From: an uncultured Glaciecola sp.
GTDB taxonomy: Bacteria; Pseudomonadota; Gammaproteobacteria; Enterobacterales; Alteromonadaceae
NCBI GenBank assembly: GCA_947496235.1
Contig: CANMCE010000002.1
Coordinates: forward strand, 1 to 64,000
Reading direction: 5' to 3'
Length of the DNA stretch: 64,000 bases
Shown: one piece after another, positions 2,751 through 55,004 of the stretch
Layout of the letters: every line of letters starts with the position of its first letter
Numbering within the stretch: position 1 is the first letter of the stretch
Notes under the pieces: model-generated
The model's database searches: none
Told to the model about the DNA's origin: nothing
The model's input: the letters and a program-made list of their open reading frames with translations, nothing else
Position numbers and translations under genes: made by a program

Positions 2751-4457
2751 ATGTCTTCTAATATAAACGCTATCATTCAAAGACTTGCGGGCCAGTCGGC
2801 TTACGAAAAAGGCGTAGCGCTATTTCGTGAGAATGCAGTAATTAATTTTAGAAATGAAAATAATAAAATCATCGCACAAGTCCAAGGCACTTATGTTTAT
2901 GATGTAAGCTTAACCATCTTATCTGATTCTTTCGATGGCGGGTGTTCTTGCCCGGCTTCAGAAGGCTTTGATTTTTGCAAGCATTGCGTAGCAACAGTGT
3001 TGCATTACGAAGAACAACAAGAAAAATACCAGATACTGTTAAACGGTGGTCCTGCAGATAGGGTTAAAGGGTATTTAGATTCTTTGACTGAGGGGGAAGC
3101 AAAGCAGCATTTGTATAGCTATATAAAAAGTAATTCTGAAGAGTTAGACAAGTGGGTTCTTTTTGCTGATATAGCGCTAGATAGCTTCGATATAAAGCAA
3201 TTTAGGAAACGAATCATTAAGGCTTTGCCGTTACGTGACCTATGGCGCTATGACCAAGTAAGAAATTACTTCGATAAAGCAAGAGCACAATTGTCAATTC
3301 TGTTTGAAGTTATGGATAGGCTTGAAGCTATGCAAGCGGTCGAATTGGCTGAATTCATGTTGGCCAGGTATGACAAAATTGTGGAGCGAGTGGACGACTC
3401 GGGCGGATATAGATTCGGCGTTTACTATTTAATAGAAAAACAATTCATTAAATCTTTCCAGCGTTTAACTATCGAAGACGAAAAAAAGGCTCAAATATTA
3501 ATGGGACTTTATGATAGTGAGTACTTGCATATTGATTTTGGTGATGTGGGTAAAAAGTTCATTGATTCAACTTCGTCGCCTCTTGCTATTGCTTTCTATG
3601 GTAAATTAGAAAAAAGAATCGAGACCATTAAAAAAGACAAAACACAAAGTGTCTCATCTAACATTTACCAACAAATGGTTCATTCTCTAGCCCGTTACGC
3701 ATATGTGCGAGGTGATTATGATAAGTCTGCAAGTTGGTTGGCTAGCATTGCTAAAACTTTCTCAGATGGATTCACCATTATTGAAGATTTACTTCAAGCC
3801 AATCAATTTAAACTAGCCTGTAAATATCTTAAAAATGCCAAAACTCTTGCTAAGCATAAAGATGACATCGACAAACTTAATCGTTGCCAACTTAACGTTA
3901 ATTTAAATCTGAACGATCTACCCGCCGCTTTAACGGTTGCATGGGATTTATTTTGTTCGACACTTTCGACGGAAGACTTTGAGCGCGTCGCTAACATTAA
4001 TAAAGAACTTGGTTTTGAAAAAGAGGATTTATATTCTAAAGCTGAATCTGAGATTAAAAAGTCTTTTAAATCTAATGTCCCAGATCACTTAAAAAATTAC
4101 GCCCCTTTAATTGAGTTTTATATAGCCACAAAACAGTACCAAAAAGCCAGTGATTTAGTGGAAAATCATGAGCTTCCAGAATATCAATTACATGAGTTAG
4201 CCTTTGTCTGTGTACAAAATAATCTGGCTGAAAAAGGCGTCGAGTTATATAAAAAACTGATCACGCATTTTGTATTAAAAGGACAGAACAAGGATTACCA
4301 ATTTGCTTTAGATCTCCTTTTGGAGCTAGAAGAAAATGAAAACTACCTCCCTAACAAGAGACAAAGCTTACGCCAAATTGTTACCGAATTAATGTCGACC
4401 CATACGAATAAGCCTACTTTCACAAAGCTACTAGAGCTCAATTTTTCAGAGCTCTAG
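2751..4457 (+). CDS. SWIM zinc-finger protein
   Basis: A 568-residue cytoplasmic protein. Near residues 64-78 it carries CSCPASEGFDFCKHC, which fits the SWIM zinc-finger pattern CxC-x(n)-CxH. SWIM domains bind DNA or proteins and are often encoded beside SNF2-type helicases, but no helicase lies nearby. The rest is an alpha-helical region with an appearance of tetratricopeptide-like repeats (repeated alanine/leucine helices from about 150 to 560). The substrate and partner are unknown. The ATG start has a weak ribosome-binding site. The stop codon lies inside a 12-bp hairpin stem shared with the convergent TRAP operon. Confidence 0.75.
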   Translation: MSSNINAIIQRLAGQSAYEKGVALFRENAVINFRNENNKIIAQVQGTYVYDVSLTILSDSFDGGCSCPASEGFDFCKHCVATVLHYEEQQEKYQILLNGGPADRVKGYLDSLTEGEAKQHLYSYIKSNSEELDKWVLFADIALDSFDIKQFRKRIIKALPLRDLWRYDQVRNYFDKARAQLSILFEVMDRLEAMQAVELAEFMLARYDKIVERVDDSGGYRFGVYYLIEKQFIKSFQRLTIEDEKKAQILMGLYDSEYLHIDFGDVGKKFIDSTSSPLAIAFYGKLEKRIETIKKDKTQSVSSNIYQQMVHSLARYAYVRGDYDKSASWLASIAKTFSDGFTIIEDLLQANQFKLACKYLKNAKTLAKHKDDIDKLNRCQLNVNLNLNDLPAALTVAWDLFCSTLSTEDFERVANINKELGFEKEDLYSKAESEIKKSFKSNVPDHLKNYAPLIEFYIATKQYQKASDLVENHELPEYQLHELAFVCVQNNLAEKGVELYKKLITHFVLKGQNKDYQFALDLLLELEENENYLPNKRQSLRQIVTELMSTHTNKPTFTKLLELNFSEL

Positions 4458-41768: not shown

Positions 41769-42530
41769 ATGAAAATATTGGTAGATACTCATTCCCATAC
41801 TGTTGCTAGTACACATGCATATAGCAATGTTCATGATTATTTTCGTGAAGCTAAGGTAAAGGGTATGCAAATGTTTTCGCTTACTGATCATGGACCCGAA
41901 ATGCCAGATTCACCGCATCCTTGGCATTTTGGCAATCGCCACGTAATACCACGAATAATTGACAACATAGCTTGTTTAAAGGGCATTGAGGCAAATATTT
42001 TACCACCTGAAGGTGGTTTGGATGTACCCGCTGGCATGTACCCTTATTTGGATTTTGTAATTGCCAGTTTTCACGAACCCGTATTTGCTCCCTCAAACAA
42101 ATCTGAACACACAAAAGCTGTGGTAAACACTTTTAAAAATACTGATTGCCAAATTCTAGGCCACCCTGGAAACCCCAATTATCCTTTGGATTATGAAGAG
42201 GTAATTCGTGCGGCCAAAGACAACAATGTGTTGCTGGAAATCAACAATAGTTCTTTCACCCATTCTCGTCGCGGCAGTGAACCCAATTGCATTCGGATTT
42301 TAGAACTTATTGATAGCTTAGATTGGAAAGTAGTGTTTTCTAGCGATGCTCATATAGCTCACCATCTCGGCGACTACTCAGCGAGTATTCAACATGCCAA
42401 TACTATTGGATTTCCCATTGAACGCATTGTAAATCGTAATGCAGAAACCTTTTTATCTTTCTTAAAACAGCATAATAAAGATGTTGCTGATGAGCTCTCA
42501 GAATGGTGTAAGCAGCTCACTTCGACTTAA
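41769..42530 (+). CDS. PHP-domain phosphatase (YcdX-like)
   Basis: A 253-residue cytosolic metallohydrolase. The PHP metal-binding signatures are DTHSHT, LTDHGPEMP, the GIEANIL glutamate, and SDAHIAHHLGDY near residue 195. Close to E. coli YcdX, a zinc phosphatase linked to swarming. AGGTAAA lies just upstream of the ATG. Transcribed alone. Confidence 0.92.
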   Translation: MKILVDTHSHTVASTHAYSNVHDYFREAKVKGMQMFSLTDHGPEMPDSPHPWHFGNRHVIPRIIDNIACLKGIEANILPPEGGLDVPAGMYPYLDFVIASFHEPVFAPSNKSEHTKAVVNTFKNTDCQILGHPGNPNYPLDYEEVIRAAKDNNVLLEINNSSFTHSRRGSEPNCIRILELIDSLDWKVVFSSDAHIAHHLGDYSASIQHANTIGFPIERIVNRNAETFLSFLKQHNKDVADELSEWCKQLTST

Positions 42531-42731
42531 CAAGGATTGGAACTTCTGCCCTGAGTTTTAGACTAAATGTTGGTCTGTTGCACAAATTAATGGAATATTG
42601 CTTCCTAAGTAAAATGTTAACTATTTGAAATTTATTGATATTTTTATTGGTGTGCAAATTGCTTTGCTTAAGTAGTTTCTAGTAGCTAGTAACAGCAGTT
42701 TTTCTGACAAAGTCTATAAGGAGAGCTAGAT

Positions 42732-45164
42732 TTGACACCGATAAAAGGAACAGGCCAACGATCTAAGGATCATCAAGCAGCTCAACGTGCTTCTTCTGTT
42801 ATCGACCCGAGCTGTTACCCTAAGATGGAGCAAAAAGCGCGATGGTATTTTACCCAACTACATAGCCTGTGCGTACAAGATGACTTTTTAACTCAACTTA
42901 CCTCAGAATATCAACAATGGGCCAATACTCAAATCAACAGTAAGCAGAATCTGGCGCTATCTGAAATTGAGAAAAAAATGCAGCAAGGAGAAGGTTTTGA
43001 CAGCCTTTCGTTTTTGCAAAAGTTATCAATGGATAACCAACTAAAAGATTATTTAGACAAGTCACTTTCCTATATTTTTATGCGCGACCTAGGAAAGTCT
43101 ATCCGAGATCAGGCGGTGGCCGAGCAAATTTCCCGTTTATCTCAGAGAATTCAAAAATGGGTGAGAAAGAAACAATCACGAAGTGAAAAAACGGTGATTG
43201 AAAATAGCTTTATTGAGCAAAAAGCTATGGAATATCAGGTTACAGATGCTGTCAACTGGCTCAAAAGTAAGTTGCAGGTGTTAGAGCAAAAGCTTCCGGA
43301 ATCGTTGGATAAAAATAACGGGTTACGGAAACTGGTCAAAGTATTGGCGGGTGTTGTTATGCACCAGTTAATAGAATTGCCCAAAGACATATCAAACAAA
43401 CAGCGGGCTGAACGTTTAGATAAGGCAATACGTTTAGGTTATTGCTACGGGCTGACTTATCCATTAATCGATGACATCCAAGATTCGTCGAATTTTTTAG
43501 ATTCCGATGAAAAAGAAGCGTTTAATCAGGCTATACGAGAAAGTCTTTTGTGTGGCAAAGTCACGGCGTTTCCAGAATTTAAACATGCCCATAAGGAAGT
43601 TATGAGCTTTATTTATGAGGAATTGGAAGCTGCATTCAAATGTATTCAATCCTATTTATCGGATCAAGAAGCAAAGTATTTTTTTGAACAAGCCTTTGTC
43701 TTTTTTGAGGCCCAAAACATTGACCGTAAAAAATCATTAAATTCTAACGAATATTCAGATGAAAGTTTGTATTTACCAGTGATTCTTAAATCATCGGGTA
43801 GTCGGCTGTTAGCTAGAGATATAGTGCATAATCACAGGGATGAAGACTTCGATTATCGAACATTTTGTTTTGGTATTTACAATCAATTTAATGACGACAT
43901 CAAAGATTTATTTTCGGACATCGCCGAAGATAACCTCACACCTTACAGCTATTACTATATGCATCCCTCGGCTCATGAAAACAATATAAATCCGTATAGA
44001 GTTTATTGGGCGGTTGTTTATCACTTAATCTCTCAGGTATATGAAAATGATAGCAAGGTAACAGCATTATTTTTAGAACGTAGTATCAACGCTCATAAAA
44101 GCCTTAAAAATGACATTGGCGATGCTGAATATAAGAAGTTAGAGAAATCACTCCTAACAACCGGTAATCAAGCATTTGATAAGTTAATTTCTCGATTAGT
44201 GCATTTACCAAATCAAGTAGCTTGGTTCGATAAACTCATCAGCCGAGAAGTATCAGATTATTTTGAGAAACAGCGTCGAGTTAAAGAGCAATTTAAGCAG
44301 GAGTTTGTCGCAGCGCAGGACTTTATTAATCAGCATATCGAGTTATCTCAACACCATAGAATACCCAACACGCAGTTAGCCGAATCAGCTAACTATGCTT
44401 TGGCTGCCGGTGGAAAAAGACTTCGTCCGGTACTGGCATACATATCCTTGACTCAAAGGTACGGTTTTTCTGAAAATCAAACCATTCCAGTGTTGCAACT
44501 GCTGGAGTATATGCATACTGCATCATTAATTTTTGATGATAAGCCTAGTCAAGACAATGCCTCTTTTCGTCGAGGCAAGCCAGCACTACACACACACTGC
44601 AAGAGTGAGGCGCAAGCAGAGCTGGCGGGCGTTTATTTGATGATGAAAGCTGTAGAGGTACAAACTCGTGTTCAGAATATTGCTCCTGAGCACATTCTTG
44701 CGTCAATTCAATATGCGGCGAATACCACGCAGGCTATTTGTGAAGGGCAACTATTGGATTTACAGTCCCACAATCAACAAACCTCTATTGAAGACTTAGA
44801 GCAAATCTGTTTCTTAAAAACCAGTTTGGCGATTGAGGCTGCGATTCTAATTCCGGCCATCTTGGCAGGGGTGAATGACATTGAAAAAGAGCACCTCAAG
44901 CGTTTTGCAAAATACCTTGGGCTAGTATTTCAATTGAAAGATGATTTACTTGATGCTCAAGGTGATGCAGTAATCTTGGGAAAACCAACCCAACAAGATA
45001 TTAAGAGCTCTAAAGCAACATTTGTGACTTTGCTAGGAATAGATAATGCACAAGATAAACTTATGCATTATCAAAGTAAAGCTTTGGAATCGTTGAATAA
45101 ACTGGCGACTAAGAGTCACTTTTATGAGCAATTATTAGAATACGTGGCATTAAGACAACATTAG
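42732..45164 (+). CDS. Two-domain class I isoprenoid synthase
   Basis: An 810-residue protein with two prenyl-synthase-like halves. The C-terminal half (about 525-810) is a polyprenyl synthase like IspA: GGKRLRP near 559, first aspartate-rich motif DDKPSQD near 602, second motif KDDLLDAQGD near 735-744. The N-terminal half (about 160-460) also has a DDIQD motif at 247-251 and DDIKD at 388-392, spaced like the paired metal sites of class I isoprenoid synthases. The usual IspA is about 300 residues, so this is a fusion. The product is unknown; it might make and then rearrange or extend an isoprenoid. Start TTG at 42732, with AAGGAG about 7 nt upstream. No cyclase or oxidase lies next to it. Confidence 0.8.
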   Translation: MTPIKGTGQRSKDHQAAQRASSVIDPSCYPKMEQKARWYFTQLHSLCVQDDFLTQLTSEYQQWANTQINSKQNLALSEIEKKMQQGEGFDSLSFLQKLSMDNQLKDYLDKSLSYIFMRDLGKSIRDQAVAEQISRLSQRIQKWVRKKQSRSEKTVIENSFIEQKAMEYQVTDAVNWLKSKLQVLEQKLPESLDKNNGLRKLVKVLAGVVMHQLIELPKDISNKQRAERLDKAIRLGYCYGLTYPLIDDIQDSSNFLDSDEKEAFNQAIRESLLCGKVTAFPEFKHAHKEVMSFIYEELEAAFKCIQSYLSDQEAKYFFEQAFVFFEAQNIDRKKSLNSNEYSDESLYLPVILKSSGSRLLARDIVHNHRDEDFDYRTFCFGIYNQFNDDIKDLFSDIAEDNLTPYSYYYMHPSAHENNINPYRVYWAVVYHLISQVYENDSKVTALFLERSINAHKSLKNDIGDAEYKKLEKSLLTTGNQAFDKLISRLVHLPNQVAWFDKLISREVSDYFEKQRRVKEQFKQEFVAAQDFINQHIELSQHHRIPNTQLAESANYALAAGGKRLRPVLAYISLTQRYGFSENQTIPVLQLLEYMHTASLIFDDKPSQDNASFRRGKPALHTHCKSEAQAELAGVYLMMKAVEVQTRVQNIAPEHILASIQYAANTTQAICEGQLLDLQSHNQQTSIEDLEQICFLKTSLAIEAAILIPAILAGVNDIEKEHLKRFAKYLGLVFQLKDDLLDAQGDAVILGKPTQQDIKSSKATFVTLLGIDNAQDKLMHYQSKALESLNKLATKSHFYEQLLEYVALRQH

Positions 45165-45185
45165 GGCTTGCTCTAGGTTTCTCAA

Positions 45186-45908
45186 TTATAGACTGGCATT
45201 TAACTGGCTCACACGACTGAGTAGTTTGGCCTTGTACATTAATTGATTCCGATAGTAAAAGTTGTCATCGATATGCACCGGATCAGCGGTGGAAAATTCG
45301 CCTCCCCAACGAAGTACATCATCATCGCATAATGACTTAATAAAACGTCTTACACCCTCAGGAAGATTATCTAAATTTTCCTTAACTAAGGCTTTAGAAT
45401 TATACAACTTACCGTCACACATCACATTCATGTCGATGGCATGGCCTACAAAATGACAACTACGAGTGGCGGGCGGCACTATAGCACCCATCACTTGTTC
45501 ACTTACATTGCGTATCGAAGAAGTGACCCAAATTTTGACCTTAGATTGTTTGGCAAATTCATTTACCCGGTTTAGTTCAGGTACGAAGTCTTTGTCTACT
45601 TTAACACTTTCCCCAATGAATTCAGATCCAGCAAAAGTGGTTAAAACAAACTCCTCTGAAGGATGAATTAACGATTGAGTGCCAGCCTCAATACCCGTTT
45701 GGGATTTCTCTAAGCTTTTAGGAGGGATTTTTTCAATATAATCACCATGCACATAACCTACCTTCCCAGCATGAGTTTTCACTCGGTAAAAGGTGACCTC
45801 ATCAACAATTTCTACTTCTTGATTATGCTGTAATACAGCGACTTTAGTGCCGTTGGGTTTTTCCCGTAAATTTAAGCCTGAGTCAGGTTTTACTCGTCCT
45901 CTTTTCAT
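45186..45908 (-). CDS. SH3b-M15 peptidoglycan peptidase (endolysin-like)
   Basis: A 240-residue protein with an SH3b cell-wall-binding domain (about 5-62, LNLREKPNGTKVAVL, GKVGYVHGDYIEKI). A C-terminal M15/VanY-type peptidase domain (about 100-235) follows, with the metal site SCHFVGHAIDMN (SxHxxGxAxD) and the last ligand in PVHID. There is no signal peptide, as in endolysins released by a holin. The stop converges with the isoprenoid synthase at 21 nt. The next gene is a holin-like protein. Confidence 0.85.
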   Translation of the reverse strand: MKRGRVKPDSGLNLREKPNGTKVAVLQHNQEVEIVDEVTFYRVKTHAGKVGYVHGDYIEKIPPKSLEKSQTGIEAGTQSLIHPSEEFVLTTFAGSEFIGESVKVDKDFVPELNRVNEFAKQSKVKIWVTSSIRNVSEQVMGAIVPPATRSCHFVGHAIDMNVMCDGKLYNSKALVKENLDNLPEGVRRFIKSLCDDDVLRWGGEFSTADPVHIDDNFYYRNQLMYKAKLLSRVSQLNASL

Positions 45909-45913
45909 GAGGC

Positions 45914-46447
45914 TTATCCTTTAGGCTCTTGGTCAAAGGCCGAAATCATATTTTTTATACGGCTGTTACTTTCCCGTGCAGAACGGATCTTTTGAATTTT
46001 CTCGATACCTCTTGAGCCAAAATAAAAGCCATAGATGGTCAACATTATGGTTTGAAAGAAGGGGATCCATTCTTCAACTAGCTTAACCTGATCAGGGGTT
46101 AGACCACTGTTAAAAATGGTTAAAAACATCAGGATAACGATAGAAACTGTCATGAATATTAGTGTCATTGGCCGAATATTTTTTGACAGCCAACTATCGC
46201 TTTTCATGTCGAGCCTCAGACGCTCGGTCAGTTCTTGTTCTTGTTTTTCTTCATGCATAGCGGCTTCGCGATCCATTTGCATAAGAAGTTCTTGCAAGCG
46301 TAAACGATAAGCCGTCTTAATTTTTTGTTGTTCAATTTCGGTAAGTGCGATTTCTTCATCTGATGTGATGAGATCGTCGAGTGCTTTACCAACAGAAGTG
46401 ACTACATCGGTTGTTGATTTACTAAATAGAGTGCTAAGCCAGCCCAT
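45914..46447 (-). CDS. 3TM holin-like protein
   Basis: A 177-residue protein with a charged N-terminal coiled-coil-like region, two membrane helices (about 90-112 and 128-148), and a charged C-terminus. The pattern (SWLSKNIRPMTLIFMTVS, FFQTIMLTIYGFYFGSRGIEK) matches the holin family named for three transmembrane segments that is also found in gene transfer agents. It would let the neighbouring cytosolic peptidase reach peptidoglycan. No other phage genes are near. Confidence 0.8.
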   Translation of the reverse strand: MGWLSTLFSKSTTDVVTSVGKALDDLITSDEEIALTEIEQQKIKTAYRLRLQELLMQMDREAAMHEEKQEQELTERLRLDMKSDSWLSKNIRPMTLIFMTVSIVILMFLTIFNSGLTPDQVKLVEEWIPFFQTIMLTIYGFYFGSRGIEKIQKIRSARESNSRIKNMISAFDQEPKG

Positions 46448-52994: not shown

Positions 52995-55004
52995 ATGAAA
53001 CTAAATCCCGCTCAACAACAAGCAGTAGAGTATGTGACAGGCCCCTGTTTGGTGCTAGCTGGTGCTGGAAGCGGTAAAACCCGAGTTATTACCAATAAAA
53101 TTGCTTATTTAGTCAATCAATGTGGCTATAAACCTAGTCAAATTGCGGCGGTTACCTTCACAAACAAAGCGGCCCGGGAAATGAAGGAGCGCGTTGCTGA
53201 TACATTGGGTAAGAAGTCATCTCGGGGTATCAAGATTTCAACTTTCCACACAATGGGACTCAATATTTTAAAGCGCCATGCGTCAGATATAGGCTATAAA
53301 CCAGGCTTTTCGTTATTTGATGATAAAGACAGTCTAGCCTTGTTAAAAGACCTTACACAAGACGTCTACGATGGTGACAAAGACGCACTACAATCCTTAC
53401 AAAAGAAGATTTCGTTTTGGAAAAATGAGTTGGTCATGCCAGCTCAAGCAACTAAATTATCAACTCAGGCTGAAGAGCAAGAGTTAGCACAGTTTTACGC
53501 TGAATATCAACGTCACCTTCAGGCGTATAACGCCTTGGATTTTGACGATTTGATATTGCTTCCTACCTTGTTATTCATGCAAAACGAAGAGGTAAGGGAG
53601 CTCTGGCAGAGACGCATTCGGTATTTATTAGTCGACGAATATCAAGATACCAACAGCAGTCAATACACCTTGGTAAAATTGCTGGTGGGACAGCGAGCGC
53701 GCTTTACCGTGGTAGGTGATGATGATCAGTCAATTTATTCTTGGCGTGGTGCGCAACCGAAGAATTTGGTATTGCTACAAAAAGACTTTCCCCAGTTGCA
53801 ATTGATAAAGTTAGAGCAAAATTATCGTTCTTCAGGCAGGATTTTACACTCAGCTAATATCCTAATTCAAAATAATCCCCATGTATTTGATAAAAAGCTC
53901 TTTTCTGCACTAGGTTACGGAGATCCGTTAAAAGTTCTGGTCGCAAAAGACGAAGAGAATGAAGCTGAAAAAGTAATTGCCGAGCTCATGGCTCACAGGT
54001 TCATGAATGACACTGAATACCGAGATTACGCTATCTTATACCGAGGTAATCATCAAAGCCGCGTATTTGAAAAATTGCTTATGAAAAACCGCATTCCCTA
54101 CCGAATTAGTGGTGGAATGTCTTTTTTCGGTCGAGCAGAAGTAAAAGATATAATGGCCTATTTACGCTTGCTAACAAACCAAGAAGACGACAATGCCTTA
54201 TTACGCATTATCAATACACCCTCCAGAGGAATAGGCAGAGCTACCTTAGCTAAAATAGGTGAATTTGCTCATACCCATCACATTGGTTTGTTTGAGGCCA
54301 TGTGCCATAGCGGTTTAACCTCAACCCTTGGTCAAAATGCTGGTGGTAAAGTAGCACAATTTGCCAAATTAATTGTGATGACCTCTGACAATGCAAGGCG
54401 GGGCGATACTCAAGCCGTATTAAGAGATTTTATTAAACAACTAGATTTTGAAGAATGGTTGTTCTCACAGAGTCCAAGTCCCAAAGCTGCGGAAATGGCC
54501 ATGGCCAATATTTCTACGCTATTTGGTTGGGTACAAGACATGATTAAAGGCGACGAATTACAAGCGCCCATGACATTGCCTGAAGTGGTCCAACGGCTAA
54601 CACTACGCGATATGATGGAAAGAGGGGAAGATGCCGATCATGCCGACCAGGTACAATTGATGACATTACATGCATCTAAAGGTCTCGAATTTCCTTACGT
54701 GTTTATGGTTGGCATGGAAGAAGGTTTATTACCCCACCAAAGCAGTATTGATGAAGACAATATTGAAGAGGAACGCCGACTCGCCTATGTGGGTATTACA
54801 AGAGCTCAACAGCAGTTGTATTTTACTATCGCCCGAGAGAGACGTCAGATGGGAGAACTTTACGAACCAGAACCAAGTCGTTTCTTACACGAATTACCAC
54901 AAGATGACATTGAATGGGAATGGGAAAAACGAAAACCAGACGCAGAACAGCGTAAAGCGACTGCACAAAAAGGCATTGCAAATCTTCGTAATATTTTTGA
55001 CTAA
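52995..55004 (+). CDS. rep: ATP-dependent DNA helicase Rep
   Basis: A 669-residue superfamily 1A helicase. Walker A is GAGSGKTRV, helicase motif II is in VDEYQDTN, motif III in [15 protein letters not shown], and motif V/VI in [14 protein letters not shown] and [15 protein letters not shown]. Length and pattern match Rep rather than UvrD. It clears protein blocks ahead of replication forks. It follows ubiA after about 100 nt. Confidence 0.95.

Follow-up and report, generated by a model that had tools for sequence, protein, structure and literature searches.

The window analysed here, a stretch of 64,000 nucleotides from an uncultured Glaciecola sp., encodes an accessory protein that is conserved in a few gammaproteobacteria and that, on the evidence of its sequence, is an isoprenoid enzyme with two sites and predicted catalysis. 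The gene is a single uninterrupted frame of 810 codons (810 residues) on the plus strand with a TTG start at 42732, and it joins an N-terminal half (N-half) with two aspartate motifs to a C-terminal half (C-half) that belongs to the prenyl diphosphate synthase family. The preliminary description had proposed two aspartate-rich sites in one chain, and both pairs of motifs are indeed conserved in every homologue that we aligned. It had also suggested looking for the same fusion in other genomes, and a scan of genome contigs returned 14 encoding loci, all of them fused. These come from Aliikangiella, Pleionea, Kangiellaceae MAGs, Ningiella, Glaciecola and unclassed gammaproteobacterial MAGs, with both halves at least partly in one open reading frame at 14 of 14 loci; 12 are nearly complete, and the L016 and L018 copies are cut at the locus ends. 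The window protein, these 14 and one further homologue (L060, from a survey of the family of Aliikangiella genome G575) make up a 16-row alignment, and the features discussed below are collected in Table 1.

Table 1. Features of the fusion gene, in window coordinates; residue numbers are those of the encoded protein.
Feature	Position	Strand	Basis or remark
Ribosome-binding-like AAGGAGAG	42718..42725	+	includes GGAGAG 42720-42725, six bases ahead of TTG
Whole fused ORF, 810 aa	42732..45164	+	homologous fused ORFs at related loci
N-terminal helical extension, residues 22-165	42795..43226	+	mean pairwise identity 0.328
N-half core, residues 171-473	43242..44150	+	all-helical model, class I synthase-like, no family match
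N-half GLRKLVK, 197-203; R199, K200, K203 conserved; likely GGKRxR counterpart	43320..43340	+	alignment, motif-order test
N-half first Asp motif DDIQD, 247-251, no RRG after	43470..43484	+	16-row alignment
N-half AQNIDR, 327-332, likely GQxxDL counterpart	43710..43727	+	alignment, motif-order test
N-half KSSGSR, 353-358, likely KT-motif counterpart, R358 invariant	43788..43805	+	alignment, motif-order test
N-half second Asp motif NQFNDDIKD, 384-392, QxxDDxxD form	43881..43907	+	alignment, motif-order test
N-half DNLTPY, 400-405, like EGKPTLP tail of own IspB, Lys to Asn	43929..43946	+	pairing is our interpretation
Predicted long helix linking halves, residues 499-535	44226..44336	+	full-length model
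C-half prenyl diphosphate synthase, residues 529-810	44316..45161	+	PF00348; fold TMt up to 0.89
C-half GGKRLRP, 560-566	44409..44429	+	16-row alignment
C-half first Asp motif DDKPSQD, 602-608, plus RRG, 613-615	44535..44576	+	16-row alignment
C-half GQLLDL, 672-677	44745..44762	+	16-row alignment
C-half KT, 696-697	44817..44822	+	16-row alignment
C-half second Asp motif FQLKDDLLD, 733-741	44928..44954	+	16-row alignment

The C-half can be assigned firmly to the all-trans prenyl diphosphate synthases. PF00348 matches residues 548-778 (E 1.8e-45; 155.6 bits against a curated cut-off of 27), and the GGKRLRP, DDKPSQD and KDDLLDAQGD motifs that had been read as IspA-like in context are all present, with DDLLDAQGD at 737-745. 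GGK, DDx4D and RRG occur in 16 of 16 rows, and KT and the second motif FQxxDDxxD in all 15 rows that reach that far (L016 ends early), with Tyr in place of Phe in two. This half resembles the bacterial IspA/CrtE-type synthases (PF00348) in its fold and throughout the core motifs, and in the full-length model (pLDDT 81.9, pTM 0.76) it superposes on solved FPP and GGPP synthases with TMt up to 0.89. It earns no curated function name, because its best NCBIfam models, an FPP synthase subfamily (211 bits, cut-off 275) and CrtE (160.7, cut-off 460), both score below their cut-offs. An aromatic residue five positions before the first aspartate motif halts the chain at C15; the C-half has Ala there in 15 of 16 rows and Ser in the other, and the window genome's own proteins have Tyr (IspA-like) and Ala (IspB-like). 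The small residue suggests, under this rule, a C-half product of C20 or longer.

The N-half carries DDIQD (247-251) and DDIKD (388-392) exactly where they had been placed, and the conservation in homologues on which that reading had been staked holds throughout, with D247/D248/D251 and D388/D389/D392 invariant in 16 of 16 rows. R199, K200, K203, Q328, K353, S354, R358 and Q385 are also kept, both in an alignment of 15 members and in the 16-row alignment, and D331 in 15 of 16 rows (Glu in L015). Mean pairwise identity over 91 pairs, with L016 and L018 left out, is 0.495 for the N-half core (171-473) and 0.502 for residues 536-810, and since the two cores are equally conserved the N-half is under constraint. 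The longest invariant run of the entire protein, FGIYNQFNDD (380-389, in the alignment without the L016 row), spans the start of its second aspartate motif. With K562/R565, the first aspartate motif at 602, Q673/D676, K696 and the second aspartate motif at 737 with Q734 taken as the C-half counterparts, the spacings between successive motifs, C-half against N-half, are 40 against 47, 71 against 81, 23 against 25 and 41 against 35 residues. When both N-half aspartate motifs were held fixed and the remaining core columns shuffled 100,000 times, no shuffle reached even three of the four other motifs (basic pair, QxxD, KS, and Q at -3), each of which, taken singly, landed in its spacing window at a rate of 0.2 to 1.4%; the windows were the C-half spacings ±10, chosen after the alignment had been seen, and the N-half gap of 81 from first aspartate motif to Q sits exactly on the edge (71 plus 10).

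Two familiar elements are missing from the N-half. RRG follows the first aspartate motif in none of the 16 rows (residues 252-262), and the NSE triad was not found in the 16-row alignment, where the second motif has the QxxDDxxD form in all 16 rows in place of NSE/DTE. What is kept and what is lost bear on two alternatives. In one, the N-half would be a second elongator, which within the one polypeptide lengthens the prenyl diphosphate that the C-half makes as a short primer. Chain-elongating enzymes usually have aspartate motifs of the DDxxD type, as both motifs of the N-half are, and the N-half retains KS, the Q at -3 and a basic pair like that of helix B; its EDNLTPY is also similar to EGKPTLP, the tail of the IspB encoded in the window genome. 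However, RRG and the Lys of GKxT hold diphosphates in elongating prenyl synthases, and in the N-half RRG is absent and that Lys appears as Asn; with an IspB-like gene already in the window genome, we consider a second elongator unlikely. In the other alternative, for which the missing RRG speaks, the N-half would have no catalysis of its own and would act on the C-half as small subunits do in heteromeric enzymes, by setting its chain length or stability. Heteromeric prenyl synthases exist, but their non-catalytic subunits lose the aspartate motifs, whereas here both are invariant in every row and the second falls within the longest invariant run, which makes such a partner distinctly improbable. 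Class II activity was rejected, as DxDD is not conserved: two of the 16 rows have it, each in a different position.

The N-half of the window protein has no Pfam or NCBIfam match at E 1 or better and no PHROGs match at E 10, and PF00348 is not listed for the N-half of any of 15 members in the Pfam scan. By this measure it appears to be a class I-like domain undescribed in the Pfam, NCBIfam and PHROGs libraries searched. The 15 N-halves scanned gave matches to 16 Pfam families (best E 0.00059) and seven NCBIfam families (best E 0.00049), scattered in one or two members each, and we interpret these as chance. When PDB sequences were searched with a profile, the lone weak match, to the viral protein F93 (E 0.049), is likewise taken as chance though it spans the first aspartate motif.

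Direct profile comparisons of the N-half with prenyl synthases are weak or mixed. The hhalign probabilities range from 0.1 to 13%, and the local matches place the first aspartate motif of the N-half on the second of the prenyl synthases. In profile alignments the observed score was reached in two of 300 shuffles against IspA/IspB, 20 of 300 against the C-halves and one of 300 against both together, and the reversed controls scored 38.8, 49.5 and 24.5 where the real alignments scored 39.5, 48.2 and 43.4, respectively. Both aspartate motifs were paired in order only with the IspA/IspB profile, a set of 23 ORFs that includes at least one apparently unrelated (L022, 316 aa).

An AlphaFold2 model of the N-half built from 15 sequences is all-helical (pLDDT 84.0, pTM 0.82). 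In the full-length model the first aspartate motif ends helix 222-251 in the N-half and helix 581-603 in the C-half; Q328 lies within helix 311-332, and Q673 within 652-681; K353 is the eleventh residue of helix 343-365, and K696 the eleventh of 686-711; and the second aspartate motif ends helix 375-391, with C-half residues 737-741 in helix 716-743. With an E limit of 10, Foldseek lists 425 PDB matches to the N-half model, of which none attains 0.001 (best 1.3e-3). Judged by their titles the best 50 of the 425 are prenyl diphosphate synthases, with 9a4c left out of this judgement; these 50 have TMt of 0.33 to 0.48 and rmsd of 13.8 to 19.1. Against viral models the top match is an uncharacterised Pithovirus LCPAC403 protein (E 2.3e-4, TMt 0.59), followed by an uncharacterised Cedratvirus kamchatka protein (E 6.3e-3, TMt 0.55) and an Indivirus trans-prenyltransferase (E 0.16). 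We note that the first two TMt values exceed those of all the best 50 of the 425 PDB matches.

The model thus suggests a resemblance to prenyl synthases in type and order, with a poor superposition that is no proof of fold. Because the case rests on motif order and fold, with profile comparisons weak or mixed, we infer descent from prenyl synthases, and regard homology as likely, not proven. The claim that this half is a class I synthase is accordingly upheld in part: the motif order and the prenyl synthases that head the Foldseek list favour it, and the missing family match and RRG, the weak profiles and a TMt of at most 0.48 do not. The preliminary description had looked to structure prediction of the two halves, and this went well for the C-half; the N-half came out helical with a poor superposition, and the failure to fold that would have told against the claim was not seen.

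The explanation that we prefer, and hold to be about evenly balanced between right and wrong, is a bifunctional class I enzyme in which the C-half makes a C20-type diphosphate that the N-half ionises and converts. The C-half would condense isopentenyl diphosphate with an allylic primer to give a C20-type prenyl diphosphate (GGPP or slightly longer). The N-half, as a highly diverged and probably prenyl-synthase-derived domain, would bind Mg2+ between its two aspartate motifs, ionise the prenyl diphosphate made by the C-half and turn it, as a terpene synthase would, into what is most likely a terpene, cyclic or linear. The motif order of the N-half, its Foldseek list of prenyl synthases, the constraint on its core and the carriers without PF00494 (below) support this make-then-convert chemistry. 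Counting against it are the lack of a family match, the low hhalign probabilities, the mixed profile alignments, the low TMt, the absence of NSE and the lack of a biosynthetic cluster.

The order of the two halves, by analogy, also supports it. In the available text of PMC8307374, chimeric terpene synthases with an N-terminal terpene synthase and a C-terminal prenyltransferase are called unique to fungi, and candidates for them are chosen by DDXXD/E and NSE/DTE motifs, of which the N-half has the DDxxD first motif. Like these enzymes (PTTS; fusicoccadiene-synthase type), the protein described here appears to combine an N-terminal class I-like half with a C-terminal prenyl synthase in one chain, of 810 residues against about 700 for the fungal chimeras, to judge from the same text. 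It differs from them in its bacterial host and in its N-half, which has QxxDDxxD, matches no terpene synthase family and carries a helical extension in addition. We found no report of the bacterial fusion described here in the literature searched, with most subscription journals and bioRxiv preprints outside its coverage.

The NSE triad is not strictly required, since a prenyl-synthase-like terpene synthase retains an unchanged DDxxN second motif, going by the portion of PMC7484799 available. That portion also reports that loss of an arginine accompanied terpene synthase activity, and we read the basic pair kept in the N-half as the place of this arginine, which counts against our preferred explanation. 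As far as the accessible parts of these sources go, termite terpene synthases arose from GGPP synthase duplicates (PMC13143122), and the rust fungus and termite enzymes (PMC7484799, PMC13143122) offer a parallel in which a prenyl synthase scaffold was turned to terpenes, once without NSE. They are, however, easily recognised GGPP synthase paralogues with no fusion described in those parts, whereas the N-half is beyond sequence recognition. A more specific proposal is that these proteins form a bacterial family of chimeric terpene synthases independent of the fungal one, each a fusion of a GGPP-type synthase with a terpene-forming domain whose origin is a prenyl synthase and not a terpene cyclase, with two aspartate motifs and no NSE; we advance this tentatively, as something that may well not hold.

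The fusion is an extra gene, because an IspA-like and an IspB-like gene (by size and score) are present besides it in 10 of the 10 carriers checked. The window genome has the same three, and Ningiella has a fourth PF00348 gene. Unlike the fusion, the IspA- and IspB-like proteins of carriers have a single domain (open frames of 297 to 342 residues). PF00494 (squalene/phytoene synthase) has a match in one of 15 carrier genomes, that of Ningiella, and since the other 14 are without one they appear to lack a phytoene or squalene synthase that would use the product of the fusion. This absence, together with two intact aspartate motifs and an altered diphosphate pocket, would suit an N-half that couples two allylic diphosphates, or one with an unusual acceptor, in a non-head-to-tail fashion (squalene-type or irregular), yet the N-half itself has no PF00494 match in the Pfam scan and nothing bears directly on such coupling, which strikes us as the least probable of the readings considered. 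The terpene synthase profile PF19086 matches none of the 15 carriers, but none of 14 controls either. We also note that on contig C2 of the Ningiella genome (G580), in the stretch 42236-45254, a squalene/phytoene synthase gene lies about 1.7 kb from the fourth PF00348 gene, which suggests a separate carotenoid-type cluster in that carrier.

Neighbours of the fusion in the window include LPS-type glycosyltransferases, a Kdo-kinase-like gene, a PHP-domain gene, a lysin-like gene, a sub-threshold holin-like gene and a class I/II aminotransferase-fold enzyme. The surroundings of the fusion gene show no biosynthetic cluster, either in the window or at the 14 related loci when the first 60 residues of ORFs within at most 5 kb per side were read by eye; neighbouring genes vary among the 14 loci over the same range. 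At 45186-46447 (minus strand) the lysin-like gene (SH3_3 plus Peptidase_M15_4) stands beside a gene with a sub-threshold GTA_holin_3TM match, and the two make a small phage-like or gene-transfer-agent-like pair adjoining the fusion gene. The Glaciecola UBA2563 copy at L016 has, about 0.7 kb upstream, two ORFs (3293-4314) that by eye resemble parts of IS3-type transposases.

Carriers are few in the genomes surveyed. Two of 119 genomes of the order had a match when the single N-half was the query. The class (one of 369), family (one of 98) and phylum (one of 398) surveys each returned only the window's own genome; these surveys are samples that missed known carriers, and some genomes recur among them. 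In the G575 family, 11 of 40 genomes carry the fusion. The carrier genomes measure 3.6 to 7.0 Mb; of the 29 that do not carry it, 23 are under 3 Mb. No stand-alone N-half occurs among the matches of these five surveys, and two matches in genome G617 look like a single gene split across two contigs. A search for plasmid-borne homologues gave no match.

Three genomes of the same genus had no fusion match in the family survey. A window helicase (52995-55004) is 78% identical to that of Ningiella, 74-75% to those of the three same-genus genomes and Glaciecola, and 52-53% to those of two Aliikangiella genomes and one Pleionea genome; the fusion protein is about 52% identical to that of Aliikangiella and 40-41% to those of Ningiella and Glaciecola. 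Two changes are needed on the fusion tree to account for the three Alteromonadaceae copies, which 0% of 200 bootstrap trees group together; the position of the window copy itself is poorly fixed, and a single Alteromonadaceae clade is not rejected by the AU test (p 0.152). Horizontal transfer into the window genome is suggested, not shown, by these sequence comparisons. The PHP gene upstream of the fusion (41769-42530, plus strand) has one weak match in five relatives (the three same-genus genomes, Ningiella and Glaciecola), and a comparison by way of this flanking gene found no empty site among them. Since the PHP gene is without a good homologue in the five, the region that holds the fusion may be a variable one.

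If our preferred explanation is true, a class I architecture that makes and then converts a prenyl diphosphate evolved at least twice. The bacterial family would escape profile-based mining for terpene synthases, because none of the libraries searched has a match for its N-half. Several of the carrier gammaproteobacteria are presumably marine, and the fusion offers a testable source of an as yet undescribed marine isoprenoid and a case for how the prenyl synthase fold may change its job.
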